Shown: positions 15,829 through 46,802 of the stretch, piece by piece
Layout: each line of letters begins with the position of its first letter
Position numbering within the stretch: the stretch's first letter is position 1
Source of the DNA: Deferribacterales bacterium Deferri_01
Lineage (GTDB): Bacteria; Chrysiogenota; Deferribacteres; Deferribacterales; Geovibrionaceae
NCBI GenBank assembly: GCA_001603805.1
Contig: LUZY01000009.1
Location: 62,001-126,000, forward strand
Length of the DNA: 64,000 nucleotides
Reading direction: 5' to 3'
Made by a program: the position numbers and the translations under genes
Notes under the pieces: generated by a model
Told to the model about the DNA's origin: nothing
The model's input: only the letters and a program-made list of their open reading frames with translations
Database searches by the model: none

Positions 15829-17463
15829 ATGATTGGTGAAAATTGTTCTTCGGGAAGCAATGCGGCACTGCTTATTTCTATTCTTGATTCGATAGGCAAG
15901 GGTGTTCTTGTTTTCAACGGTAAAGTTATTTACTGCAACTCCGTTGCTGAGGCTGCTTTAGGTTATTCGGCAGGTAATCTGGAGGGGCGTGAGCCGTGCG
16001 AGATATTCCCTGTGGATTCCAAGCTGCTTAATTCATGTATATTTGAAGAAATTTACGAGTGCAACATGGGCGGCGAGTTTAATTTCCGCACAGCGGATGG
16101 CTCTTTGATCCCAATGAAAAGCGAGATAAAAAGCATCGAATATGAAGGGAAGCATTCATGTCTGGTAATTTTCGATGCAGGGTCATCGGCTGATAAACGT
16201 GTTAAAAAACTTGCTGAAACAGAGCAGCTTTTCCGTATCTTGACAGAAAATTCCTTCGCCGGTATTTATATCTACAAAGATAAATATATTTATGCAAATC
16301 CGGAATATCTCTCCAAAACAGGTTACTCAATGGAAGAGCTTAAGCTTATGTCTCCATGGGAGCTTGTTCATGAGGACGACAGAGCCTTTGTTAAAGAAAA
16401 TGTGACCCGCAGACTGGCCGGCGAAGTTTTCGACCAAAAATACCACGAACGCAAAATAATAACTAAATCGGGGAAGATCAGAACCGTCAGAGTTGCAACA
16501 AATACTGTGATGATTGACGGTGAATTTGCCGGAATTGGCAGCACTATAGATATCTCCGACCTTAAAGAGCTTCAGAATAGTCTTGAGGACAAGGTAAAAG
16601 AAGAGACTTTGAAGCGCTATGAGCAGGAGCAGCTTCTTATACAGCAGTCAAAGCTTGCAGAAATGGGGGCTATGCTCCGTTCAATTGCACACCAGTGGAA
16701 GCAGCCTTTGAGTGCAGTCGGGATGCTTTTGCAGGATATGGTTCGTACGTATAATTCAGGCGAGATGGATAAAAAATATGTCGACTGGGTGCATGATACG
16801 GCATCAGAGCAGATAACTTACATGACAGAGACAGTTAAAGATTTTATGGACTTTCTCCGTCCTTCACAGGAGCGAAGCCTTTTCACAATAGAAGAAGCCC
16901 TGTGGCCAACGCTTAAGATATTTTCACATCAGGCAATTTCCCATGATCTCCACATCGAAATGAAGTGTGACTGGAAAGAGAATGATGATAAAGGCATATC
17001 TGCACATATTAAGAATATTGGCGACTCTAACATACATATAGACTGCAATAAATGCGGACGCAGCGACCTTCGTGTTGAGGGTTATAGAAATGAATTTATG
17101 CAGGTTCTGCTTAATATATTCAATAATGCCAAGGACGCCATTGAAGCCTTGAAGAAAAAAGGGGAACTGACGGAGAGCGGAAAAATATGTATCAGAATAA
17201 CTGATTTTGAAGGTCGTGTCTCAATTGATATTGAGGACAACGGCGGCGGAATTCCTGAAGAGCTGCTGAAGAAAATTTTTGATCCTTATTTCACTACGAA
17301 AAGCTCGGAGCATGGCTCAGGAATAGGCCTTTATATGGTGCGTGCCATAGTTGAAAACAGCATGGGTGGAGAGGTGCGGGTCAGAAACGGCAGTTCAGGC
17401 GCTATTTTCAGTATTATTCTGGACAGACATATCAAACGGGACTCTGCGGCAGGTTCCTGTTAA
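15829..17463 (+). CDS. Soluble PAS-PAS sensor histidine kinase
   Basis: A 544-residue kinase without membrane segments. Two PAS domains (about 12-118 and 130-245) are followed by a short coiled coil, the phosphoacceptor H288 in SIAHQWKQPLSAVG, and an ATPase domain with LNIFNNAKDAIEAL (N box), DNGGGIPEE and GSGIGLYM. An unusual insert before the N box holds a C-x2-C pair (C406, C409). Residue set is complete, so it should be active. No cognate regulator is adjacent. Its 3' end overlaps the convergent fic gene by 32 bp, and no terminator separates them. Confidence 0.93.
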   Translation: MIGENCSSGSNAALLISILDSIGKGVLVFNGKVIYCNSVAEAALGYSAGNLEGREPCEIFPVDSKLLNSCIFEEIYECNMGGEFNFRTADGSLIPMKSEIKSIEYEGKHSCLVIFDAGSSADKRVKKLAETEQLFRILTENSFAGIYIYKDKYIYANPEYLSKTGYSMEELKLMSPWELVHEDDRAFVKENVTRRLAGEVFDQKYHERKIITKSGKIRTVRVATNTVMIDGEFAGIGSTIDISDLKELQNSLEDKVKEETLKRYEQEQLLIQQSKLAEMGAMLRSIAHQWKQPLSAVGMLLQDMVRTYNSGEMDKKYVDWVHDTASEQITYMTETVKDFMDFLRPSQERSLFTIEEALWPTLKIFSHQAISHDLHIEMKCDWKENDDKGISAHIKNIGDSNIHIDCNKCGRSDLRVEGYRNEFMQVLLNIFNNAKDAIEALKKKGELTESGKICIRITDFEGRVSIDIEDNGGGIPEELLKKIFDPYFTTKSSEHGSGIGLYMVRAIVENSMGGEVRVRNGSSGAIFSIILDRHIKRDSAAGSC

Positions 17464-34454: not shown

Positions 34455-37262
34455 ATGAAACGTATTCTGATTCTCTTTTGTATTTTTCTGTCCGTTAATG
34501 CTTTTGCGGCAAACATATACAGCCTCGAGCTGACTTATACCGGTACGGAAATCAAGGGCAGGGCGGCATGGAAGTCTGATTCCCCTGCAAAATTCGATAG
34601 TGCCGGACTTAGCATAAAGGGTGCTGAGGTTGAAAACGGTTCCTTTATTCTTCCCGCAGGCAGAAGCGAGATAAGCTTTGAAGGTATGCCGCACAGCATT
34701 TTCGGCGACTGGTTTCCCGTTGCGGAGGAAAAAGCATATGTGATGCTTAAGGTGACTGTTCCCAAAGGGTATCTGCCTTTGTTTGAAGGGGAGGAGACAT
34801 CTGAGCCGTTTAATAATGTTTATACCTTCCACAGCCGCGGCGAGGCTGAAAAACCCCATCTTACCATAACAAGCGGAGTTGAGGTGAAGTCTGTTGAAGC
34901 GGCGGGGGTGACTGTACGCACAGCTTTTTCAAAGAAAAACGCAGGCTTTGCTGATGAATACATTCAAAAAAGTATTGAATATATAAAGATGTACAGTGAA
35001 CTCATAGAAAAATATCCTTATGGCTCGTTAACCATACTGGAAGTTCCTTATCCAGTGGGATATGCTTTTGATGGTTTCACAACTTTGGGCTCTGCTGTTA
35101 TACCCATGCCGTTTATTACGGAGACATCGCTCGGTCATGAAATACTCCACCAGTGGTTCGGGGGTTCAGTTGGCATTAATTACGACAAAGGCAACTGGGC
35201 GGAAGGCATCACAACATATATGGCTGACTATTACTATAACGAGCTTAAATGGATGGGAAAGGAATACCGTAAGAATTCTCTGATCTCATTCGGTGCATAT
35301 TCTGATAATGAAACCGATTTCCCCATGTCCGAATTTAAAGCACGTCACGGTAAATCAGGTTCTGCGGTGGGTTACAACAAGGCAATGATGTTTTTTCATA
35401 TGCTTAAGCGCACCTACGGAAATGACAAATTTTTAGACGCTGTCCGGCTTTTTGTAAAAGACAACACAGGAAGAAGAGCCTCATGGGATGACTGGAAAAA
35501 AGCTTTTGTAACTGTCGCAGGAGATGATGCGGCACAGCTTTTCGATACATGGATAACTTCAAAGGGTCTGCCTGCCTACTCAGCGGAAAAGATAAGTGTA
35601 AAATCTGTAAACGGCAGGTATGTAACCTCTTTTAACCTTGTGAGAAAAGGGGAAGGTTTTGTTGCCGATGTTCCCGTAACCGTGAAAACTGTCACAGGAC
35701 AGCAGGATTTTATATTAAGGAGCGATAACGGCAGCACAGGCTTTGACCTCGCCACAGAGACAGAACCGGTAAGTCTTGTTATTGATCCTTATTACGATGT
35801 GCCCCGTGCGCTTTATCCGGCGGAGATTCCACCTGTGATTTCTGCATATCTCGGTGCTTCAAAAAAAGTTTTTGTGACAGATTCCGAGAGGTTCAACTGC
35901 CTGTCCGGGGTTAGCGAACAGGGTGAAGTTAAGCAGGTTTCATACAAAGGGTTCAGGCTTGAGGATTACAAGGATTATTCTGTTATGCTTGCCGGAGTGC
36001 CGGACCATTTTTATGAAAAATACTTCGGACGTGCCCCTGAACAGGGGGACGGTCTGCTTGTTAAAACCTATAAAAACCCGTTCAGTATTGACAATGTTGT
36101 AGTTTCCGTCTCCGGCAGTCCGGATGGAATAGAAGGTGTATGCCGCAGGCTGCCGCATTACGGCAAATATAGCGAGCTTGTTTTTACTAAGGGGCGCAAT
36201 GTGAAAAAAGATGTTAACCGCACTGAAGACGGTGTTATTTATGAGATAAAAAACAAAGAATACGCTTTCAGGGTTTCCGCAGCCATGACTCTTGATGAAA
36301 TAGCCGCAGAAGCGGACGGTGTGCGGCTCATTTATATAGGCGAAAAGCATGATGAACACTCCCATCACGCAAACCAGCTTGCCATGATAAAACTGCTCCA
36401 TGAAAAATACGGGAAAACAGCCATAGGTATGGAGATGTTTCAGCGCCCCTTCCAGAAGGTTCTGGACGATTACATCGAAGGTGTGGTTGATGAGCGCACA
36501 ATGCTTGAAAAAACAGAATATTACAAACGCTGGCGGTATGATTATCATCTCTATAAACCCATACTGACCTACGCCAGAGAAAACGGGATAAGGATAATAG
36601 CCCTGAATGCTCCGGCTGAGGCAACTAAAAAAACAGCCATGGAAGGGCTTGGAGCCCTTAATGAAGAGGAGAGGTTCTCCACAGCCTCGGAAATAGATTA
36701 TTCAAACCCCGCTTACAGGGAAGATCTTAAAAGTATATTCGACATGCACCCCTCAAGGCAGGTTTTTGAAAACTTCCTTGAAGCACAGCTGCTTTGGGAT
36801 GAAACAATGGCGGAAGCCGTTGCGGAATATATCAAAAACAATGACGGAGTGATGGTCGTTCTCGCCGGTAACGGACATATAAGAAGGGGCTACGGCATAC
36901 CGGAGAGAGTGAAACGGCGTACGGGTCTGAAGTATCTTTCCATTGTGCAGGACGAACCTGCGGAGAAAGGTATAGCTGATTTTGTCCTTTATCCCGATGG
37001 GCTTGACGGAGAGGCAGCACCAAAGCTGGGTGTTGCGGTGAAGGATTCGGATAAGTCTCCGGAGATCACTGAAATAGGTGATGATACCCCTGCCAAGAAA
37101 GCCGGACTTCAGGTCGGTGATGTGATTACCGGTATAGATTTCTTTGAGGTCAACAGCCTTTATGATCTTAAAGTAGCCCTGTTTTATATGAAACAGGGAA
37201 ATTTTGTTAAACTTAAAATCCTTCGGGACGGGAAAGAAATCGTTGTAGATATGGAGCTTTAA
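34455..37262 (+). CDS. Secreted M1-type metallopeptidase fused to ChaN-like and PDZ domains
   Basis: 935 residues with a signal peptide (1-19, cut after AFAA). Residues about 150-390 form an M1 peptidase core with zinc ligands H228-E-x2-H232 (GHEILHQW) and E250 (WAEGITTY), but no aminopeptidase GAMEN motif. A middle region is followed by a ChaN-like domain (about 610-845: YIGEKHDEHSHHANQLAMI, AIGMEMFQRPFQ, GNGHIRRGYGIP), known from haem-binding lipoproteins. A C-terminal PDZ domain occupies about 850-935 (DDTPAKKAGLQVGDVI). It overlaps the transglutaminase-like gene (TAATG). Envelope protein processing is a reasonable guess; the combination is not one I know. Confidence 0.88.
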   Translation: MKRILILFCIFLSVNAFAANIYSLELTYTGTEIKGRAAWKSDSPAKFDSAGLSIKGAEVENGSFILPAGRSEISFEGMPHSIFGDWFPVAEEKAYVMLKVTVPKGYLPLFEGEETSEPFNNVYTFHSRGEAEKPHLTITSGVEVKSVEAAGVTVRTAFSKKNAGFADEYIQKSIEYIKMYSELIEKYPYGSLTILEVPYPVGYAFDGFTTLGSAVIPMPFITETSLGHEILHQWFGGSVGINYDKGNWAEGITTYMADYYYNELKWMGKEYRKNSLISFGAYSDNETDFPMSEFKARHGKSGSAVGYNKAMMFFHMLKRTYGNDKFLDAVRLFVKDNTGRRASWDDWKKAFVTVAGDDAAQLFDTWITSKGLPAYSAEKISVKSVNGRYVTSFNLVRKGEGFVADVPVTVKTVTGQQDFILRSDNGSTGFDLATETEPVSLVIDPYYDVPRALYPAEIPPVISAYLGASKKVFVTDSERFNCLSGVSEQGEVKQVSYKGFRLEDYKDYSVMLAGVPDHFYEKYFGRAPEQGDGLLVKTYKNPFSIDNVVVSVSGSPDGIEGVCRRLPHYGKYSELVFTKGRNVKKDVNRTEDGVIYEIKNKEYAFRVSAAMTLDEIAAEADGVRLIYIGEKHDEHSHHANQLAMIKLLHEKYGKTAIGMEMFQRPFQKVLDDYIEGVVDERTMLEKTEYYKRWRYDYHLYKPILTYARENGIRIIALNAPAEATKKTAMEGLGALNEEERFSTASEIDYSNPAYREDLKSIFDMHPSRQVFENFLEAQLLWDETMAEAVAEYIKNNDGVMVVLAGNGHIRRGYGIPERVKRRTGLKYLSIVQDEPAEKGIADFVLYPDGLDGEAAPKLGVAVKDSDKSPEITEIGDDTPAKKAGLQVGDVITGIDFFEVNSLYDLKVALFYMKQGNFVKLKILRDGKEIVVDMEL

Positions 37263-38212
37263 TGCGCCCGAAGATGCTTGTTCTCTCTTTTCTGCTGTTT
37301 GCTGCCGCATTTGCGGTTTTTCGTTTCAGTGAAAAGAGAGATGTGCCGATTCCATATGACGGCGAAATGCCCGAAAGGTATGTCCGCAAGGGGTTCCAGC
37401 CTTATATAAAGGCAGTGAACAAAAACAGTCAGCAGTTGAGGGCACTGGGAGCTAAGATTGCCGGAAACTGCCCGGACACAGAGTGTAAGGCGGCAAGGGT
37501 TTATGCCTTTGTTCAGAGGGATGTACGCTACTTAAGCGACCCTGCGGGATTTGAGCTGATCCAGAAGCCGGAAGAGACACTCGCCTTGATGGCGGGAGAC
37601 TGCGAGGATCTTGCCATACTCGTCTCTTCCCTTCTCTGGAACATAGGCGTGGAGACTCAGCTTGTTGCAACGGACAGCCATATGTATTCAAGAGTATGCG
37701 GAATCGACCGTCACAGGTTTGAAGGAATTTTGGAGGATGAGTACGCCTCAAGCCTCACTGTTACAGATACCCGTCAATATCTCCCGGCAAACTCTGCATG
37801 GGCGGTCTCTTTTGAGGGAACAGGGGCAGAAAAAGCATATGTTATTGAATTCAGCGCAGGCGAACCGGTGGATATTTATCTTTTTCCTGATAAAAATGAA
37901 TTTGATAAGATGACAAAGGGCGGTAATTTTAGATATTATGACACATGCTCCGCCAAAAACAGCAGAGGTGAAAAGCTGTGGTGCGGCATTGAGCGTGGAA
38001 ATGTAATAGGAGTGAAGACCCGGAAGGCATCCGTTTTGACATTCAAAGCGGTTAAATCTGCCTCGTTTTCGTCCGACCTTGTATTTGAAGAAGACGAGGA
38101 AGGTACACTCTGTGTTCCTCTTGATGCGGCAATCAAAGGCGCACAGGTTCTGCCCGGAATGGGTATGGACGAAGACGGCATAACAGAAAAATACGTGATT
38201 GATATAAGGTAA
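37262..38212 (+). CDS. Membrane-anchored transglutaminase-like cysteine protein
   Basis: 316 residues with an N-terminal membrane anchor (4-22) and a transglutaminase-core segment: VYAFVQRDVRYLSDP, C114 in LMAGDCEDLAILVSSLLWNIGVE (the typical DCed motif) and H140 in ATDSHMYSR as likely catalytic residues. The C-terminal 150 residues are of unknown fold. Such proteins usually act as peptidases or amidases in the periplasm. Translationally coupled to the M1/ChaN/PDZ gene, implying a joint envelope function. Confidence 0.82.
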   Translation: MRPKMLVLSFLLFAAAFAVFRFSEKRDVPIPYDGEMPERYVRKGFQPYIKAVNKNSQQLRALGAKIAGNCPDTECKAARVYAFVQRDVRYLSDPAGFELIQKPEETLALMAGDCEDLAILVSSLLWNIGVETQLVATDSHMYSRVCGIDRHRFEGILEDEYASSLTVTDTRQYLPANSAWAVSFEGTGAEKAYVIEFSAGEPVDIYLFPDKNEFDKMTKGGNFRYYDTCSAKNSRGEKLWCGIERGNVIGVKTRKASVLTFKAVKSASFSSDLVFEEDEEGTLCVPLDAAIKGAQVLPGMGMDEDGITEKYVIDIR

Positions 38213-38219
38213 ATGATTC

Positions 38220-39842
38220 ATGAAAACATTCTGCTCAAAAGACTGCCCCGATTTGTGTGATTTTTATATTGAGGAACAGGAAGGAAAAATTACCTTCCGT
38301 GGCGCAGAGGAAAAAAACGGACGCAACGGTTTTGTATGTTCCAAGCTTAAAGGCTTTTATGAAAGAGAGATAACCTGCGGTGAAAAGTTTGATCCTGAAT
38401 CCCTTAAAAATGCCGCTGAATTGATAAGATCATTAGAAGGGCAGGAGTTTCTTTATATGAGAGGTTCCGGCAGTCTGGGTTATGCTATGGGCTGGTGGGA
38501 TGTTCTGTTTTCCAATATAAAAGGCGCAGTTTTCATTGACGGCAGCCCGTGTGATATAACCGGGACCGATGCCCACGAATATGATTTTGGCGTGTGTGAT
38601 AATCCACCAGTCTCGAACCTTGCCGAAGCCGAGAATATCATTATCTTCGGCAGAAATGCCAAAGTTGTGAACCAGCATCTTTTCGCTTATCTGCTTAAGT
38701 TAAAAAAAGCAGGGAAGAGAATTCTTTATATAGATCCGATCCGAACAGAAACTGTTCCTTCCGCAACGGATTACATTCGCATAAACCCCGCCTGTGATGG
38801 CTTGCTTTGCGAAGCTTATCTCACGGAGGATGAGAAGAAACGTGAGGAGTTTATAAAAATAGCCGGGCTCACAGAACAGCAGTTCCTCCTGTTTTCTGAT
38901 TATGTAAAAAACGGGAAAACTGCTTTTATCACCGGTTTCGGCTTGCAGCGATACAAAAACGGCATGGCTGCTGTCCGCTGGATAAACAGGCTTGCTGTCA
39001 AAACGGACAACGAGAAATACCTTTATTACGCCAGAGGCTCAAAGGATGAGCTGAAACCTGTGCCGAAGCAGGCTGTAAGGCGTGTGAATATATCTGAACT
39101 GCCTGAAGTTATAGATAAATTTGCCGCAATGGTAATAGTCGGGGCGAATCCTGCTGTGACTTTTCCCAAGAGTGAAAAATGGCACAAAGCTCTGGAAAAG
39201 GTTAAGCTGATAAGCATTGATACTAATATCACAGAAACTTCAAAGCATGCGGATGTGTTTATCCGTGCCGGCGGAATGTTTGCACAGAATGACATTATGG
39301 GAAGTTATTTCTTCAACGAAAGACCGTCATTGAGGGAAAAGTTTGTGAATCTTCCATCGGATACCGAACTGGCAGAGGAACTTGCAGCTCTTCTGGACAT
39401 GAAACTGGGTGTTATCCAGCCGGAAAATGTTGAAAGAAAAACACCTTCTTCAAGAAAATATGAGGAAAAGCCTCTGGAATCCGCCTTTCCTTATCATGGT
39501 AAAGGATACAGGTTTCTTTCCGGTTCGCACACAGCATATCTTAACTCGCAGGTGGCGCCATCTTTAGGTAAAAACGATCCTTTCGTATATATCTCACCCG
39601 AAACAGCCGAGAAGGAATCACTTAAAGAGAATGATTTTGTGGATGTTTTCAGCGCCGAAGGTTCGTTTACAGGAATTGTCAGAGTGAGCGGAAACATATG
39701 CGAAAATACGGTTTATGCCTACAAAAGCCGTGAAATGGCGGAAGGTTATATAAATAATGCAACGTCCATGCTTCTCACTGATTCAGGAACGGGAATTGCG
39801 TATTATGATACTTTCGTAAATATAGTTAGAAAAAAAATGTAA
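38220..39842 (+). CDS. Short molybdopterin-dependent oxidoreductase (formate dehydrogenase-like)
   Basis: 540 residues, shorter than the usual 650-800. The N-terminal [4Fe-4S] site is C5-x3-C9-x3-C13...C40. A candidate Mo ligand cysteine is in IDGSPCDITGTDAHEYDFG. IGANPAVTFPKSEKW-like and DVFIRAGGMFAQNDIMGS segments fit the molybdopterin-binding domains, and the C-terminal molydop-binding barrel (LKENDFVDVFSAEGSFTG) is present. No signal peptide or Tat motif, no partner electron-transfer subunits nearby. Substrate cannot be told. Only 7 bp after the previous gene. Confidence 0.82.
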   Translation: MKTFCSKDCPDLCDFYIEEQEGKITFRGAEEKNGRNGFVCSKLKGFYEREITCGEKFDPESLKNAAELIRSLEGQEFLYMRGSGSLGYAMGWWDVLFSNIKGAVFIDGSPCDITGTDAHEYDFGVCDNPPVSNLAEAENIIIFGRNAKVVNQHLFAYLLKLKKAGKRILYIDPIRTETVPSATDYIRINPACDGLLCEAYLTEDEKKREEFIKIAGLTEQQFLLFSDYVKNGKTAFITGFGLQRYKNGMAAVRWINRLAVKTDNEKYLYYARGSKDELKPVPKQAVRRVNISELPEVIDKFAAMVIVGANPAVTFPKSEKWHKALEKVKLISIDTNITETSKHADVFIRAGGMFAQNDIMGSYFFNERPSLREKFVNLPSDTELAEELAALLDMKLGVIQPENVERKTPSSRKYEEKPLESAFPYHGKGYRFLSGSHTAYLNSQVAPSLGKNDPFVYISPETAEKESLKENDFVDVFSAEGSFTGIVRVSGNICENTVYAYKSREMAEGYINNATSMLLTDSGTGIAYYDTFVNIVRKKM

Positions 39843-39895: not shown

Positions 39896-41968
39896 ATGTC
39901 TGTCGAAAAACAGAGAGAGATAAGCCTTCATAAGCTTTTGACAGTGAATTGCCTGCTTCTGGTCTTCGCTGCTGTGTCTTTAATTCTGGTTAATTACTTT
40001 CTGAATTACAGAAATTTTGAGATGAATGTGCGTGGCATAACTGCTGAAGCTGTGCGCATGGTGGATGAAAATATCGGTTATTATAAGGAGTTTCAGTCTC
40101 CTGCGAATATACATCTCCGTCGCCATATGCTTGAGGATCACAGGCAGCTCCATGACTTTATCGCCGAATACGGCATTCCCTCCTATGAATACCTTATGAA
40201 TGTTAAAACTGAACATGAAGCTGAACTCAATACGGAAATTGAAGTCGCACTTCTTACGGGTGAAGGGGTAATTTTCAACACAACCTACCCCACAGAGCTT
40301 GGGCTTGACATAAGCAAATTTCCGAATGCAAAGGAAACTCTGCGGCGGGCAAAGGACAGCGGGGAAATTTTGCTTGATTACCCTGTTTATGAACGTTCCG
40401 GCAGGGTGCTGCGTGCTTATACCATGTCATACATCAAAGAACGTGACATATATCTCCAGACTGCGCTTTTTCTTGCGGATCTCAAGGTGGTCAGGGACAG
40501 GCTGGAAAGGATTGTGGAGCTTTCTGCATATATAAAGTCTGTTGATGCGATTCTTGTTTTCAGCAACGGTGAAGCAGGCGAAAATCTGATCTTTAATATA
40601 AGTTCAGACAACCCTGAATATGATACAGATTCAGAAGCAGTTCTCGACACCCTCAGAAAAGGCATAATGACTGAAAAAACATCGGGAAATCTGATCACAG
40701 GAACAAGCAAGAGCTACTATGTCATAGCCCGTGTTCCTGATTCTGTGTCAGGGCTCAAGGATCTTGACCACCGTATAGTTTACCGTCTCAGCTTTGATAC
40801 CACTGATGAAAGGCGATATGGTCTTCTAAGCTTTTCAATAAAACTCTTTTCAGTGATAATTGCTGTTTTGGCATTGGCTATGTTTTACGGAAGGCTGAAC
40901 TCCCGGTTTGTTGTTCCTTTCAGGATAATGATTGAGAGAATTAAGCAGTCAGAAAAAATTACCGAAAAAAGCATACTCTCAGGCGAAAAGGATCTTTCCC
41001 GGCTCGCTGAACTTTATAACGGACATCTGGACAGGCAGACAGAACTTTTACTCTATGCCGAAAAGTTTAATGAAGAACTGGAAGAACAGGTCAGGGCGGA
41101 AGTTTCAAAAAGAAAAGCTAATGAGCAGTTGATAATTCGTCAGTCCATGCTTGCAACAATGGGCGAAATGACACATTCCGTTGCATATCTCTGGCAGTAT
41201 CCACTTAAGGTTCTGGGTGAATATGTTGATAATATATCCTCAATGACGGAGGATTTTGAATACAACAGAGACAAGCTGGAAAAAATAACCTCCGACTGTA
41301 TGGAGCAGGTGCTTTATATGTCCTCAACTATAGAAGGACTAAGGGATTTTTTCAGACCGTCACAGGAGAAGAAGCTTTTTGACCTCCGCCAGACACTGGA
41401 AGATACAATGAGCATGGTTGCTCCTCATATGCTTACAGGGGGCATAAAACTAAGCTTTACCTGCCGTCTGCAGGGCTACGGGGAACCTGTGACAATTAAT
41501 TTAATGAAAAATCTTAACCGATGCTGCGGCGCAGGGTACTCTGAATGCGCACCCGAATGCCCCTCCTTCGGGTTTACGATATGCGGTTTTCCGGCGGAGT
41601 TTAAGCTTGCTGTCCTGAGCATTTTTCATAACAGCAAGAGACTGCTGGATGAAAAATGCAAGTATAACAAAGAGTTTACCCCTGAACTCGCCGCTGACTT
41701 GTACGATGAAGGCGACTATATCCGCCTGTGTATTCATGACAATAGCTTAGGAATGACAGACGATGAGCTGAAAGCTGTATATGACCCGTATTCCCCGGAT
41801 TCCGGCAGGGATATGCGGCACTTTAATCTTTATATGGCTGTTGAGCTTTTCAGTTCTGTTATGAAGGGTAAAATTAACATCGAAAGCTCCGGCAGCGGAT
41901 TGGCAATTAATATCTATCTTGATAAAAACACCGCCTCCTGCGGGCTTGAAATGGGCGTGCCGAAATGA
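39896..41968 (+). CDS. Membrane histidine-kinase-like protein lacking the phosphoacceptor histidine
   Basis: 690 residues from ATG 39896 (GGAG at 39887-39890; a TTG eight codons earlier has no ribosome site). Two transmembrane segments (about 15-36 and 313-331) flank a periplasmic sensor. In the dimerisation helix GEMTHSVAYLWQYPLKVLG, the histidine of the family motif is Y431. The ATPase domain is decayed: the first N-box asparagine is S, the G1 box is DNSLGM and the GxGxGL lid is lost. A cysteine-rich insert (C543, C544, C551, C555, C563) precedes the N box. Probably a sensing or scaffold partner of the next gene, which it overlaps by 4 bp. Confidence 0.88.
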   Translation: MSVEKQREISLHKLLTVNCLLLVFAAVSLILVNYFLNYRNFEMNVRGITAEAVRMVDENIGYYKEFQSPANIHLRRHMLEDHRQLHDFIAEYGIPSYEYLMNVKTEHEAELNTEIEVALLTGEGVIFNTTYPTELGLDISKFPNAKETLRRAKDSGEILLDYPVYERSGRVLRAYTMSYIKERDIYLQTALFLADLKVVRDRLERIVELSAYIKSVDAILVFSNGEAGENLIFNISSDNPEYDTDSEAVLDTLRKGIMTEKTSGNLITGTSKSYYVIARVPDSVSGLKDLDHRIVYRLSFDTTDERRYGLLSFSIKLFSVIIAVLALAMFYGRLNSRFVVPFRIMIERIKQSEKITEKSILSGEKDLSRLAELYNGHLDRQTELLLYAEKFNEELEEQVRAEVSKRKANEQLIIRQSMLATMGEMTHSVAYLWQYPLKVLGEYVDNISSMTEDFEYNRDKLEKITSDCMEQVLYMSSTIEGLRDFFRPSQEKKLFDLRQTLEDTMSMVAPHMLTGGIKLSFTCRLQGYGEPVTINLMKNLNRCCGAGYSECAPECPSFGFTICGFPAEFKLAVLSIFHNSKRLLDEKCKYNKEFTPELAADLYDEGDYIRLCIHDNSLGMTDDELKAVYDPYSPDSGRDMRHFNLYMAVELFSSVMKGKINIESSGSGLAINIYLDKNTASCGLEMGVPK

Positions 41969-43794
41969 AGATACCGCTGAAGAAACTTCTGGTTCACAGT
42001 TTTGTTCTGCTGTTCTTTTTTCTGGTCTGCCTTGTGGCGGCGGATCACTATCTGAGCGTGCGTCTGGCTGTGGCAAAAACAAAAGACACATACAGAGGAC
42101 TCGCCGTTCTCCTTGAAGAAACGGTAAAATCAGCAGCAGATTCTTTTCACATGAGACTGGATTCAATCTCAGATGTCACGAGACACCATATGCGTGATGT
42201 TCTGCATAACTTTCCCGCAGATGAAACAGAGGCGTCCGCTCTGGCGGAAAACTATTTCGCATCCACTGGAAGAGCATATGCCGTTATGATCTATGATTCC
42301 GAAGGACATCGGCTCTACAGCGGCAAAAGCGGCAATTCTTCTGAAAGGTGGTCTACTCTTCCAAATTCAAACGACTTTGAAAAGGCAAGGACTGATTCCG
42401 GCGGAGTGATCCGCATAAGATATTCCTATGAAAAATCCACATCGGAGATCATGTGCTTTGAATGGTCGCCTGAGCAGGGGAGATATGCAGCGGTTATGAC
42501 TGAGTATTCCTTTGATGATGAAATATCTGCACGTATTCAGGGAATTCTTAGCGGAAGCAGTCTTTTCAGAAAGATTAACGTTTATTCCGTGGGCACGTCT
42601 GCCAAGGAAACTTCTGTTATTTACGGAGAGGAATTAACATCTGAAGATTTTGAAATACTTTCATCCGAGGCGCAAAACAGCACTGTATTTAAAGAAGATT
42701 TTGTTTACAAAACCTTTGAATACAGCGCCGAAGAGCTGCTCCCCTGGGGAAAAATAGGGATAAAAGCCGTGATAAGTCCGGAAGGCTTGAATCGAATGAA
42801 AGAAGGTTCTATGGTTCTTGCCGGTATGACTCTGCTCTTTTCCGGTTTGTTTATGTACTACGTTTTTAAGGTATTCCGCCGCCGGTTTGAAATACCATAT
42901 TCCGAGGTTATGCGTCTGTTCGGTCAGTCAAGAAAAATCAACCTCAAAGAAGAGAATGACTATGTTACCGAACTGAAAGAGCTTGTTCATGAATATAACA
43001 GACATCTGGAAAAAACAGAAAGGGTTATGGAAAACCTTGTTGAATACAAGGAAGAATTAAAGCTTAAGTCGGAATGGGAAGCTGAACGGCTTGAAAAACA
43101 GAAAGAATTTATGATCCAGCAGATGAAGCTGTATTCCATAGGGGAGATGGTGGCATCCGTATCCCATCACTGGCGTGAGCCGTTGAGCCTTGTGCATATA
43201 AACATGCAGAACATAAAGGAAGAGATCTCTTCCGGTATTGAAGATGAAAAGTACCTCACTGAATGTATCGCAGCATGCAGGGAGCAGATCAAACTGATGA
43301 AGGAATCTGTTGAAATGTTCCTTGGGTTTGTTTCGGCTGAAGAAAAGGAGGAGGGGAGCTTTGAAGTAATGCCTCTTTTGGATGAGGTGCATTCTTTCGT
43401 GTCAACATATTACGAAAAAGACGGAGTCGGCTTTGTCTTCTACAGCGATAATTCAGTGACGAAAGTTAACGGTTCTTCATCCGTTCTTAAGCAGGTTCTG
43501 CTTAATGTCCTTATGGTTTCCCGTGAGCTTGTGGAAACTAACGCCATCGGCGTGGGAACAATTGTTTTAAGCATGAACGAGGAAAACGGAGCCTGCGTAA
43601 TAAGTATAGAAGACAACACAGGAAAATTCAGAGAAGCCTGCCGGGCTGCTCTCGAAGATCCGCTGAGTACCGCAAATCTTAAAAAAGGAATGGGGCTTTA
43701 TATCTCAAACAAGCTAATGGAGAAAAACTTTAACGGCAGAGTGGAGGCTTCATCTTCTGAAAAAGGCACACTATTAAAAATAATCATTCCTTAA
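41965..43794 (+). CDS. Membrane sensor histidine kinase with incomplete ATPase motifs
   Basis: 609 residues. Transmembrane segments about 10-27 and 283-302 flank a periplasmic sensor. The phosphoacceptor is present (H401 in SVSHHWREPLSLV). The ATPase domain is partial: the N box reads LLNVLMVSRELV with the second asparagine missing, G1 is DNTGKF, but KKGMGLYISNKL keeps part of the G2 lid. It could be phosphorylated by, or dimerise with, another kinase. It overlaps the preceding histidine-less paralogue by ATGA, so the two are probably made in equal amounts and may form a heterodimer. Confidence 0.87.
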   Translation: MKIPLKKLLVHSFVLLFFFLVCLVAADHYLSVRLAVAKTKDTYRGLAVLLEETVKSAADSFHMRLDSISDVTRHHMRDVLHNFPADETEASALAENYFASTGRAYAVMIYDSEGHRLYSGKSGNSSERWSTLPNSNDFEKARTDSGGVIRIRYSYEKSTSEIMCFEWSPEQGRYAAVMTEYSFDDEISARIQGILSGSSLFRKINVYSVGTSAKETSVIYGEELTSEDFEILSSEAQNSTVFKEDFVYKTFEYSAEELLPWGKIGIKAVISPEGLNRMKEGSMVLAGMTLLFSGLFMYYVFKVFRRRFEIPYSEVMRLFGQSRKINLKEENDYVTELKELVHEYNRHLEKTERVMENLVEYKEELKLKSEWEAERLEKQKEFMIQQMKLYSIGEMVASVSHHWREPLSLVHINMQNIKEEISSGIEDEKYLTECIAACREQIKLMKESVEMFLGFVSAEEKEEGSFEVMPLLDEVHSFVSTYYEKDGVGFVFYSDNSVTKVNGSSSVLKQVLLNVLMVSRELVETNAIGVGTIVLSMNEENGACVISIEDNTGKFREACRAALEDPLSTANLKKGMGLYISNKLMEKNFNGRVEASSSEKGTLLKIIIP

Positions 43795-43882: not shown

Positions 43883-44290
43883 ATGGGGTTGAATTGGCTC
43901 AAAATCAGAGAAGAATACGAAAGCGGCAATACAGATGCGGATATCCTTGCGGATATGTTCGGCTGTAAGTCATCAACTATCAGAGAAAAAATAAGAAGTG
44001 AAAAATGGGAAAATACCCTTGAGGAAGGGCGTAAAAAACGCATCAGAATCTTTAAGGCTGTCCAGAATGTCGCCCTGCGGGGGATAGAAAAAGCTGACAG
44101 CATGCTTGATGAATGCGGCAATGTCAAAGATCTGGAAACACATTCCAAAGCAGTGAAAACCTTCCGTGACGTTGGGATGATTAAACCGGAGGAAGTGATC
44201 GGCGGAGTCAGAACCAATAACGCACTGGATGATATGTTTGACATAAGCCTTGAAGATGCCGCAAGAGTTCTGGGAGATGATGAAGACTGA
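43883..44290 (+). CDS. Small terminase subunit-like protein
   Basis: 135 residues with an N-terminal HTH-like region (IREEYESGNTDADILADMFGCKSSTIREKIRSEKW) as in phage small terminases that recognise packaging sites, followed by a helical oligomerisation region and an acidic tail. GGTGGGGAG precedes the ATG. It directly precedes a large terminase gene, which it overlaps by 14 bp, and this context supports the call. Sequence alone would be weaker. Confidence 0.75.
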   Translation: MGLNWLKIREEYESGNTDADILADMFGCKSSTIREKIRSEKWENTLEEGRKKRIRIFKAVQNVALRGIEKADSMLDECGNVKDLETHSKAVKTFRDVGMIKPEEVIGGVRTNNALDDMFDISLEDAARVLGDDED

Positions 44291-45674
44291 CCCCAGAGTG
44301 GAGGCATGCGCCAAAGCGAAGGACTCGTTAATAGCTTACTGTATGCTCAGTTACAGGGATTTTGTTCCGGGCTGGCACCACAGACTTCTTGCCCGTGAGC
44401 TTGAGCTTGTGGAAAAAGGCGAGACTGACAGGCTGATGGTGATGATGCCTCCGAGACACGGGAAAAGTGAAGTCACATCAGTGCGCTTCCCTGCGTGGTT
44501 TATGGGACGTAATCCGAAGTTTAATGTTATAGCCTGTTCATACAGTGCGGATCTTGCTGAGAGCTTCAGCCGAAGGGTCAGGGATTTAACCGCCTCAAAG
44601 CTTTTCAGGGGAGTTTTCGGAGGAAAAGGGCTTAAAAGGAATGTACGTTCCGCCGCAAGATGGGAACTGGAAGAAGGCGGCAGATACCTGGCTGCCGGCG
44701 CAGGAGGCTCAATCACAGGGCAGGGAGGGCATCTGATTATTATCGATGACCCTGTAAAAAACTCCGAGCAGGCATCATCAGCAGTTTACAGGGATAAATT
44801 GTGGGAATGGTACCGTTCGACCCTGTTTACAAGGCTTGAGAAGAACGGACGGATAATTCTGGTGCAGACAAGATGGCATGAAGATGACCTCGCCGGGAGA
44901 CTTCTTGCCGAAGCTCCGGATGAATGGAAGGTTCTCAAGCTGCCAGCTGTGGCGGAGGAGGACGGCTTTTTCCGCAGGTGCGGAGAGCCTCTTTGGGCAG
45001 AGAAATACGGCAGAGACGAACTCGGAAGGATAAAGCAGTCTGTGGGCTCAAGGGTTTGGAACGCATTGTATATGCAGGAGCCTGCGCCAGATTCAGGAAC
45101 TGTGCTGAAGCGGGATTGGTGGCGCTATTACAAAACTATGCCTTCAGATGTGGATTATTGGTTTCAGTCCTGGGATATGAGCTTTAAAGGGAGCGAAGGA
45201 GCTGACTATGTGGTGGGGCAGGTGTGGGCTGTTAAAGGGTCAGGCAGGTATCTTGCCGACATGGTGCGCGACAGGATGGACTTCTCCGCAACAGTGAGGG
45301 CAGTAAAAAATCTCACTGCACTTTGGCCGCAGGCAAAGGCGAAATATGTGGAGGACAAGGCAAACGGTTCCGCTGTTCTCTCTGCTCTGCGTAAGGAGGT
45401 TCAGGGGCTGATAGCGGTAGAACCGAAAGGTTCAAAGGTTGCAAGAGCCTATGCCGTTCAGCCAATTCTTGAGGCAGGTAATGTCTATTTGCCGGAGGAT
45501 AAGACATTTTCTGCGGAACTGGTTGAAGAGGCGGCTGCATTTCCATTCGGCAGACATGATGACATGGTGGATGCACTCACGCAGGCGTTAAACGAAAGCG
45601 GGGCAAGAGCAGTGCCTGAGGGTGCCTATTCAGGCACTTCGAGAAAGGCTGGTTATATATTCAAAGGATATTAA
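44277..45674 (+). CDS. Phage terminase large subunit (ATPase-nuclease)
   Basis: DNA-packaging motor, about 465 residues. The Walker A is MPPRHGKSE, Walker B is LIIIDDP, followed by the coupling RTRWHEDDLAGR-like segment (LVQTRWHEDDLAG). The RNase H-like nuclease has its aspartates in FQSWDMSFKG, YVEDKANG and GRHDDMVDALTQA, all present. ATG 44277 or 44280 follow GGGAG inside the small terminase gene; a further TTG at 44250 is less likely. The gene appears intact, which is surprising for a remnant. Confidence 0.93.
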   Translation: MMKTDPRVEACAKAKDSLIAYCMLSYRDFVPGWHHRLLARELELVEKGETDRLMVMMPPRHGKSEVTSVRFPAWFMGRNPKFNVIACSYSADLAESFSRRVRDLTASKLFRGVFGGKGLKRNVRSAARWELEEGGRYLAAGAGGSITGQGGHLIIIDDPVKNSEQASSAVYRDKLWEWYRSTLFTRLEKNGRIILVQTRWHEDDLAGRLLAEAPDEWKVLKLPAVAEEDGFFRRCGEPLWAEKYGRDELGRIKQSVGSRVWNALYMQEPAPDSGTVLKRDWWRYYKTMPSDVDYWFQSWDMSFKGSEGADYVVGQVWAVKGSGRYLADMVRDRMDFSATVRAVKNLTALWPQAKAKYVEDKANGSAVLSALRKEVQGLIAVEPKGSKVARAYAVQPILEAGNVYLPEDKTFSAELVEEAAAFPFGRHDDMVDALTQALNESGARAVPEGAYSGTSRKAGYIFKGY

Positions 45675-45686
45675 AAGGGGGAGTAA

Positions 45687-46802
45687 ATGAATAATCTCAC
45701 AAAAAATATTTCGGCATCATCAAGTTTTTCATCATTTTTAAATTTTATGCCTAATCCTGATGTAATTTTATCAAAAAATGGTCTGAGGCTTTCAGTTTTT
45801 GACGAAATGCTTACAGATGCACATATTTCAGCAAAGCTTGAACAGTTAAGGCACGGTGTCCTTGGAAACGAATGGGACATTGTTCCTGCTGATTCAACAA
45901 AGGAGGCTGTTAAAACTGCTGAGTTTGTAAGAAAAAGTCTCAAAATGATACCTAACTTCTTTCAGGAGCTTGAGGAGATGCTTTCTGCTGTGGAATACGG
46001 CTTTTCCGTTACAGAGATTATCTGGAAAAAGGAAGGCGCCCACTGGTTTGCAGAAAAACTGCTTAACCGCAATCCTGCACGGTTTGTATTTGACGGGGAA
46101 GGAAATCTGTTCATGGTCGACAGCGGCAGAAACATCCGGCTTGATGAACAATATAAGTTTATTGTTCACAGGCACATGCCCAGAAATGAAAATCCTTACG
46201 GCAGTCCAGTTTTATCCAAATGCTACTGGCCGTGGATGTTTAAGAAAGCAGGATTCCGATTCTGGCTCACCGTTGCTGAAAAATTCGGCGTGCCGACTGT
46301 ACTCGCCATGTTTGAATCTGAAGGCGGCGAAGAAACAAAGCGCAGGGCACAGATGCTGGCGGAATCCTTAAGCGGAATCCAGAATGATGCTGCGGTGGCT
46401 CTTGCTAATGTAGATAAAGTTCAGGTTCTGGAAAGCAGGGGCAGTTCAGATGATTTTGCAAAACTGGTTGAGGTCTGCAATTCTGAAATATCAAAGGCGG
46501 TCACAGGGGAGATACTCACAAGCGATACTGGTTCCGGAGGCTCTTACGCACTTGCGAAAGAACACTCCAAAACATTCGGGATCAAAGCCGCAAAAACAGC
46601 AGCATCACTTGCAGATTCTGTTAGTTCAACATTAGTAAGGTGGATAGCAGAGCTTAATTTCGGAAGCAGGTGCAAGCTTCCTTCATTTGTATTTAAAGAA
46701 AAAAAATATGCAGACTGGGCAACTGTTAAAGAGGCTGCACAGTCTGGAATGGATGTTGATTTTGCTGAAGCGGCAAGAAGATTCGGCATTCCTTTGAAAT
46801 AA
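45687..46802 (+). CDS. Mu gp29-like portal protein (DUF935), short at the C terminus
   Basis: 371 residues matching the N-terminal and middle parts of DUF935 portal proteins (DEMLTDAHISAKLEQLRHGVLGNEWDIVPAD; FGVPTVLAMFE; LTSDTGSGGSYALAKEH). Mu-type portals are about 500 residues, so the C-terminal quarter is missing; no continuation is seen in other frames after the stop. GGGGGAG lies before the ATG. It follows the terminase by 12 bp. No capsid, protease, tail or lysis genes follow, so this is either a decayed prophage or retained packaging genes. Confidence 0.87.
   Translation: MNNLTKNISASSSFSSFLNFMPNPDVILSKNGLRLSVFDEMLTDAHISAKLEQLRHGVLGNEWDIVPADSTKEAVKTAEFVRKSLKMIPNFFQELEEMLSAVEYGFSVTEIIWKKEGAHWFAEKLLNRNPARFVFDGEGNLFMVDSGRNIRLDEQYKFIVHRHMPRNENPYGSPVLSKCYWPWMFKKAGFRFWLTVAEKFGVPTVLAMFESEGGEETKRRAQMLAESLSGIQNDAAVALANVDKVQVLESRGSSDDFAKLVEVCNSEISKAVTGEILTSDTGSGGSYALAKEHSKTFGIKAAKTAASLADSVSSTLVRWIAELNFGSRCKLPSFVFKEKKYADWATVKEAAQSGMDVDFAEAARRFGIPLK

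Follow-up and report, generated by a model that had tools for sequence, protein, structure and literature searches.

Two adjacent genes in the stretch of DNA analysed here (the window: 64,000 nucleotides of contig LUZY01000009.1 from Deferribacterales bacterium Deferri_01) encode sensor histidine kinase-like proteins that both lack parts of the catalytic apparatus. The question raised by this locus is how such a pair can signal, if it signals at all. To our knowledge, histidine-type pseudokinases are known mostly from single cases.

Layout of the gene pair

The two genes, HK1 and HK2, lie in tandem and overlap, as a preliminary description of the window had reported; the overlap is four bases long. 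Searches with HK1 (E <= 1e-40) and HK2 (E <= 1e-30) in 39 genomes, the window's own included, found the pair in four: the window's genome, two others of the same genus (g1), and G003 of the sister genus. The two genes are always linked and occupy the same locus in all four holders. The genes and the upstream neighbors are listed below.

34455..37262, + strand: ChaN/M1/PDZ gene upstream of HK1; co-directional, linked in the four holders
37262..38212, + strand: transglutaminase-like gene upstream of HK1; co-directional, linked in the four holders
38220..39842, + strand: molybdopterin oxidoreductase gene upstream of HK1; co-directional, linked in the four holders
39896..41968, + strand: HK1, 690 aa, start ATG at 39896; membrane sensor, linker, DHp (Tyr431), degenerate CA
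41965..41968, + strand: ATGA overlap of the HK1 stop and the HK2 start, 4 bases; the same in 3/3 g1 genomes
41965..43794, + strand: HK2, 609 aa, start ATG at 41965; membrane sensor, linker, DHp (His401), CA without the N-box Asn and G1

The co-directional genes at 34455..39842 are likely in the same operon as HK1 and HK2. In the single protein encoded at 34455-37262, a part resembling M1 peptidases is combined with a haem-binding domain of the ChaN type and with a PDZ domain.

Read from the sequence, HK1 and HK2 share one order of parts: two membrane segments, the first of them N-terminal, enclose a region of periplasmic size and are followed by a linker, a pair of DHp helices, and the CA domain. 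The sensors, membrane segments, and dimer helix described earlier thus appear to be present in both proteins. At curated cut-offs, the CA of HK2 is the sole Pfam domain detected in the pair. It scores 27.1 bits for PF02518 (HATPase_c), barely above the cut-off of 26.4, and HK1 stays under it with 20.2 bits. No known sensor domain was found by Pfam in either protein. In the AlphaFold models, for which alignments of four window kinases served as input, the CA blocks are mostly at a pLDDT of about 75-90 and the sensors mostly below 50. The Bergerat fold is retained in both models, and residues 634-638 in the lid of HK1 are below 50. The Foldseek matches are ordinary kinases, with DivL and RetS at lower ranks, reflecting a common fold only. 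Judged by the HATPase_c match and the modeled Bergerat fold (AlphaFold, Foldseek), HK1 and HK2 belong to the histidine kinase superfamily by fold.

Catalytic motifs of HK1 and HK2

We aligned the DHp-CA parts of the four HK1 and four HK2 proteins with 20 further kinase segments from the genome of the window, a set that covers part of its kinases (L048, one region of 18, has no matching segment and was left out). The acceptor His is found in 20/20 of these segments, as are the N-box Asn and the GxGL motif of G2; the G1 Asp is found in 19/20, with Asn in L047. Since the other segments of the same genome retain the motifs, the losses in HK1 and HK2 are not due to chance. The relevant positions are as follows.

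41186..41188, + strand: Tyr431 codon of HK1 at the phospho-acceptor His position; Tyr in 3/3 g1 genomes, His in G003
41630..41632, + strand: N-box Asn579 of HK1, retained in the motif alignment
41777..41842, + strand: F box, ATP lid, and G2 region of HK1, consensus residues gone in the alignment
43165..43167, + strand: His401 codon of HK2, phospho-acceptor site; retained in 4/4 orthologues
43516..43518, + strand: Val518 codon of HK2, aligned with the Mg-binding Asn of the N box; Asn gone in 4/4 orthologues
43606..43632, + strand: G1 remnant of HK2 in the motif alignment
43687..43701, + strand: G2 of HK2 (GMGLY), retained in the motif alignment

In HK1, the replacement of the acceptor His by Tyr431 and the broken ATP lid agree with the preliminary description, and the losses go further. 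N579 and D615 are retained, the F box, TTK, and GxG are gone so that neither a lid nor G2 is left, and G1 reads DNSLG, with one Gly gone. In HK2, H401 is present, V518 stands in the column of the second, Mg-binding N-box Asn, and G1 is mostly lost, reading DNTGK versus DxGxG; the kept His and the losses in the N box and G1 are again as first described. G2 is present as well, and to the losses are added the absence of the F box and a lid shorter by 3-4 residues. Compared with a functional sensor histidine kinase, the acceptor His is therefore absent from HK1 and present in HK2, and the full N/G1/F/G2 set is found in neither, HK1 being without F and G2 and HK2 without the N-box Asn, G1, and F.

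The defects had also been called complementary. This holds at the phospho-acceptor position, where Tyr faces His, but not at the ATP sites, both of which are damaged. Each CA domain requires its own ATP-binding boxes and must bind ATP by itself. With damage in both of them, a single working kinase cannot be put together from the pair, and complementation of the ATP sites between HK1 and HK2 is ruled out.

Distribution and stepwise history

The order of genes in the four holders is ChaN/M1, transglutaminase-like, molybdopterin oxidoreductase, HK1, HK2, and the terminase genes. The family comprises 12 genomes. The molybdopterin gene is found in 12/12, and the other eight have no HK1 or HK2 beside it or beside the terminase genes.

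The sister-genus genome G003 differs in layout. HK1 and HK2 are 643 bases apart there, without overlap and with another ORF between them, and a gene read from its sequence as cupin-like precedes HK1. Translational coupling, as originally proposed, is thus consistent with the ATGA overlap in 3/3 g1 genomes but does not extend to G003. The intervening ORF (L018, 11393-11785) is small and, from its sequence, resembles an RNA-recognition-motif protein.

The boxes of HK1 in G003 are complete (AHQW, DNAKEA, DNGGG, and GIGLY), and the protein scores 60.9 bits for PF02518 (cut-off 26.4). The ATP site of HK2 is already dead in G003 (21.3 bits, under the cut-off), as it is in 4/4 orthologues. The three g1 genomes have the same Tyr and lid loss in HK1, with G2 and the F box absent in all three. 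Both genes are open reading frames in 4/4 genomes. Conservation of the pair with both defects in relatives, which the preliminary description had put forward for checking, is therefore seen in part: the pair occurs together in 4/39 genomes and the losses in 3/3 of g1, but in G003 only HK2 is defective. The opposite expectation, that relatives carry intact versions and decay is confined to this genome, is borne out by half, since an intact HK1 does occur in the sister genus but all three g1 species carry the decayed form. By parsimony, these observations suggest that HK2 lost the use of ATP before the genera split and that HK1 gave up its His and lid afterwards, within the window's genus.

Downstream of HK2, the window contains a small terminase-like ORF, a large terminase gene, and a Mu-type portal gene (43883-46802). 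The small ORF has no Pfam or PHROG match, and no other phage structural genes were recognized beside the terminase and portal genes. The large terminase is found in 12/12 family genomes with the portal adjoining in all, and dN/dS is 0.044 for both. Pfam models for Mu gpT, Mu F, tail sheath, and HK97 capsid have no match in the window's genome. The terminase and portal genes look like the relic of a gene-transfer agent or a packaging module that has been domesticated. A link between them and HK1/HK2 was considered and looks incidental, as the eight other family genomes have them elsewhere without HK1/HK2.

Selection on the two proteins

Nei-Gojobori dN/dS values were taken from G001 versus G002 (dS 1.15 and 1.60), comparisons that involve the genome of the window being largely saturated. 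The values are 0.080 for HK1 and 0.068 for HK2; two intact kinases of the window give 0.064 and 0.075. For the DHp alone they are 0.034 (HK1) and 0.042 (HK2), and for the CA alone 0.143 and 0.117, with 0.118 and 0.074 for the CA of the intact kinases. Both HK1 and HK2 are under purifying selection. Between the genera, the DHp of HK2 is its most conserved domain (63% identity; sensor 29%, CA 32%), and the DHp of HK1 shows 38%.

The ATP sites of the two proteins behave differently among the three g1 species. In HK1, 34/49 motif columns are conserved versus 68/119 elsewhere in the CA (p = 0.17), whereas the same comparison for the two intact kinases gives 46/49 and 45/49 conserved motif columns (p = 1e-6 and 1e-5). 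The motif columns of HK1 do not significantly exceed the remainder of its CA in conservation, and its use of ATP therefore looks freed from selection. By segment, conserved columns number 5/9 in G1, 11/21 in the lid, and 18/19 in the N-box helix; with the N-box Asn and the G1 Asp also retained, HK1 might still bind ATP weakly. In HK2, the altered ATP-site segments are themselves conserved among the three species (43/47 versus 70/101, p = 0.003). The CA of HK2 may therefore still bind a ligand, or a nucleotide in an unusual manner, and the conserved altered boxes would count against a wholly idle CA.

Sensors and kinship

The two genes had been taken as paralogues, a view that finds weak backing. 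In the DHp tree, HK1 and HK2 do not come out as sisters, although a topology that makes them so is not rejected either (p-AU 0.366), and HK1 groups with an intact orphan kinase (15829-17463) with moderate support (81/76). The sensor regions have no detectable similarity (hhalign probability 4.4%). A tandem duplication as the origin of the pair is neither shown nor excluded by these comparisons.

Among 50 genomes of the phylum, the HK2 sensor is found in the four holders only, and the HK1 sensor in 13, namely the four holders and nine from three other families of the order. In five of the nine non-holder proteins, the sensor is joined to a HisKA_3-like kinase beside response-regulator-like genes. 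The other four (L067, L070, L071, and L072; G025, G017, G024, and G030) carry a short Cys-rich C-terminal tail and no kinase, which would make them sensors with another kind of output. Pfam, run on seven of the nine, gives HisKA_3 in four and no kinase domain in three; L071 and L075 were classed by eye.

Proposed mechanism and alternatives

We tentatively prefer, at somewhat less than an even chance, to regard HK1 and HK2 as a two-sensor membrane unit without an autokinase, in which HK2 would be a phosphotransferase/phosphatase and HK1 a regulatory pseudokinase. The two proteins would be joined via their DHp helices, most likely as the heterodimer suggested earlier, and would have no autokinase of their own in the window's genus. 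HK2 would be the output arm, anchored in the membrane and acting as a histidine phosphotransferase/phosphatase whose CA is kinase-dead; His401 would either receive a phosphoryl group from a response regulator or strip it off one. HK1, with its sensor, membrane segments, and DHp retained, would gate HK2 allosterically as the Tyr-bearing pseudokinase. This role is proposed for HK2 because His401 and a dead ATP site match the states of PhyT and of EnvZ N347D. The latter reportedly lacks kinase activity and retains phosphatase activity with reverse phosphotransfer, according to the title of the report, and we take V518 of HK2 to be equivalent to EnvZ N347. Of the earlier suggestions, signaling without phosphotransfer of its own appears the likeliest reading. 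None of the four holder genomes has a response regulator gene linked to the pair. A single-domain response regulator of 119 aa (2521-2880) lies in the window, not adjacent to any kinase gene, and is a possible partner candidate.

The unit would have arisen stepwise, from an active-kinase HK1 with an acceptor-only HK2, as still found in the sister genus, to the doubly degenerate form. The fuller account, of a two-sensor receptor with neither protein a kinase, in which a His arm moves or removes the phosphoryl group under the gate of a Tyr partner and which descends from the active-kinase/acceptor heterodimer still in the sister genus, is rather doubtful as a whole.

The heterodimer might instead be active in the manner of FasB/FasC. 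The CA of HK1 would then use ATP via a rebuilt lid and phosphorylate His401 of HK2 in trans, and Tyr431 would remove just the acceptor site of HK1 itself. N579, D615, the conserved N-box (18/19), and the Bergerat fold of HK1 are in keeping with this, as is the FasBC layout by motifs in G003, with an intact HK1 and an acceptor-only HK2. However, the G1 and lid columns of HK1 vary among the three species, and G2 and the F box are absent in all of them, so that an active heterodimer is unlikely. We give a similarly low probability to two separate homodimers from one operon, HK2 being an independent phosphotransferase/phosphatase and HK1 sensing a phosphorylated regulator on its own, in the manner of DivL. 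The sensor regions without detectable kinship, the non-sister DHp domains, and the uncoupled genes in G003 would fit such independence, but the genes are linked in 4/4 holders and overlap by ATGA in 3/3 g1 genomes, and HK1 catalysis was lost only where the ATP site of HK2 was already dead.

More doubtful still is that HK1, HK2, or both join and tune a third, active kinase encoded elsewhere in the genome, as in RetS-GacS or ChrS-HrrS, and that this kinase would phosphorylate His401. There are 20 motif-retaining kinases in the genome, the DHp of HK1 groups with one of the intact orphans (15829-17463; 81/76), and a precedent exists in the pseudokinase ChrS, which reportedly pairs with HrrS (PMC9491836). 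Nevertheless, no specific partner was found for such tuning, and the co-conserved unit is the pair itself. Motif loss could also mean that HK1 and HK2 are non-functional, decaying remnants; this is very improbable, with frames open in 4/4 genomes, dN/dS of 0.07-0.08, and identical losses in three species, and recent pseudogene decay is ruled out on the same grounds. The two-sensor unit without an autokinase remains our preferred reading.

Comparison with known systems

EspA/EspC of Myxococcus may be a further case for comparison. FasB/FasC of group A Streptococcus, encoded by neighboring sensor-kinase genes, form a heterodimer by two-hybrid analysis (PMC12675982). One partner retains the DHp His and has a dispensable kinase domain, for which the authors propose a pseudokinase, the kinase domain of FasB is proposed to be necessary, and the regulator FasA is encoded in the Fas locus (PMC12675982). 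The adjacent kinase genes, and the retained His and lost ATP site of HK2 judged by sequence, resemble this system, most closely in the G003 state. In the window, by contrast, both CA domains are damaged, the partner has a Tyr, and the locus has no regulator gene. The one active kinase partner of a FasBC-type pair has a counterpart with complete boxes in the HK1 of G003, and the boxes are incomplete in the three g1 genomes.

DivL of Caulobacter is a Tyr pseudokinase with PAS sensors that acts on CckA with DivK~P and shows weak ATP binding and neither kinase nor phosphatase activity (PMC4211667). HK1 resembles it in the Tyr at the His position and the apparent loss of ATP use. Unlike DivL, HK1 is a membrane sensor that shares its operon with a second pseudokinase, and no kinship was found beyond the general kinase fold. 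PhyT, anchored in the membrane, has a putative sensor in the periplasm and a degenerate ATPase domain, and carries out His-dependent phosphotransfer; no phosphatase activity was seen in vitro (PMC5898713). With the PhyT/ChpT/Spo0B phosphotransferases (PMC5898713), HK2 would share a retained acceptor His and a degenerate ATPase domain, but this putative phosphotransferase is tied to a second pseudokinase, a difference from those systems. By analogy, the lack of phosphatase activity in DivL, and in PhyT in vitro, would count against the proposed HK1/HK2 unit. In RetS-GacS (PMC12189002) and ChrS-HrrS (PMC9491836), a kinase-like protein pairs with another kinase and alters its output; the partner there is an active kinase, whereas none is identified for HK1/HK2.

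No paper on a doubly degenerate, coupled kinase pair was found in the open-access literature, subscription papers lying mostly outside the search. The ingredients are each known, but the literature searches gave no such pair accompanied by a sister genus in which HK1 is still intact. Compared with these systems, the locus is a natural series under selection in a single gene neighborhood: an intact and an acceptor-only protein in one genus, and two degenerate proteins in the next. It could show how a kinase pair sheds catalysis yet keeps sensing, and whether a membrane sensor signals by dephosphorylation or phosphotransfer alone.
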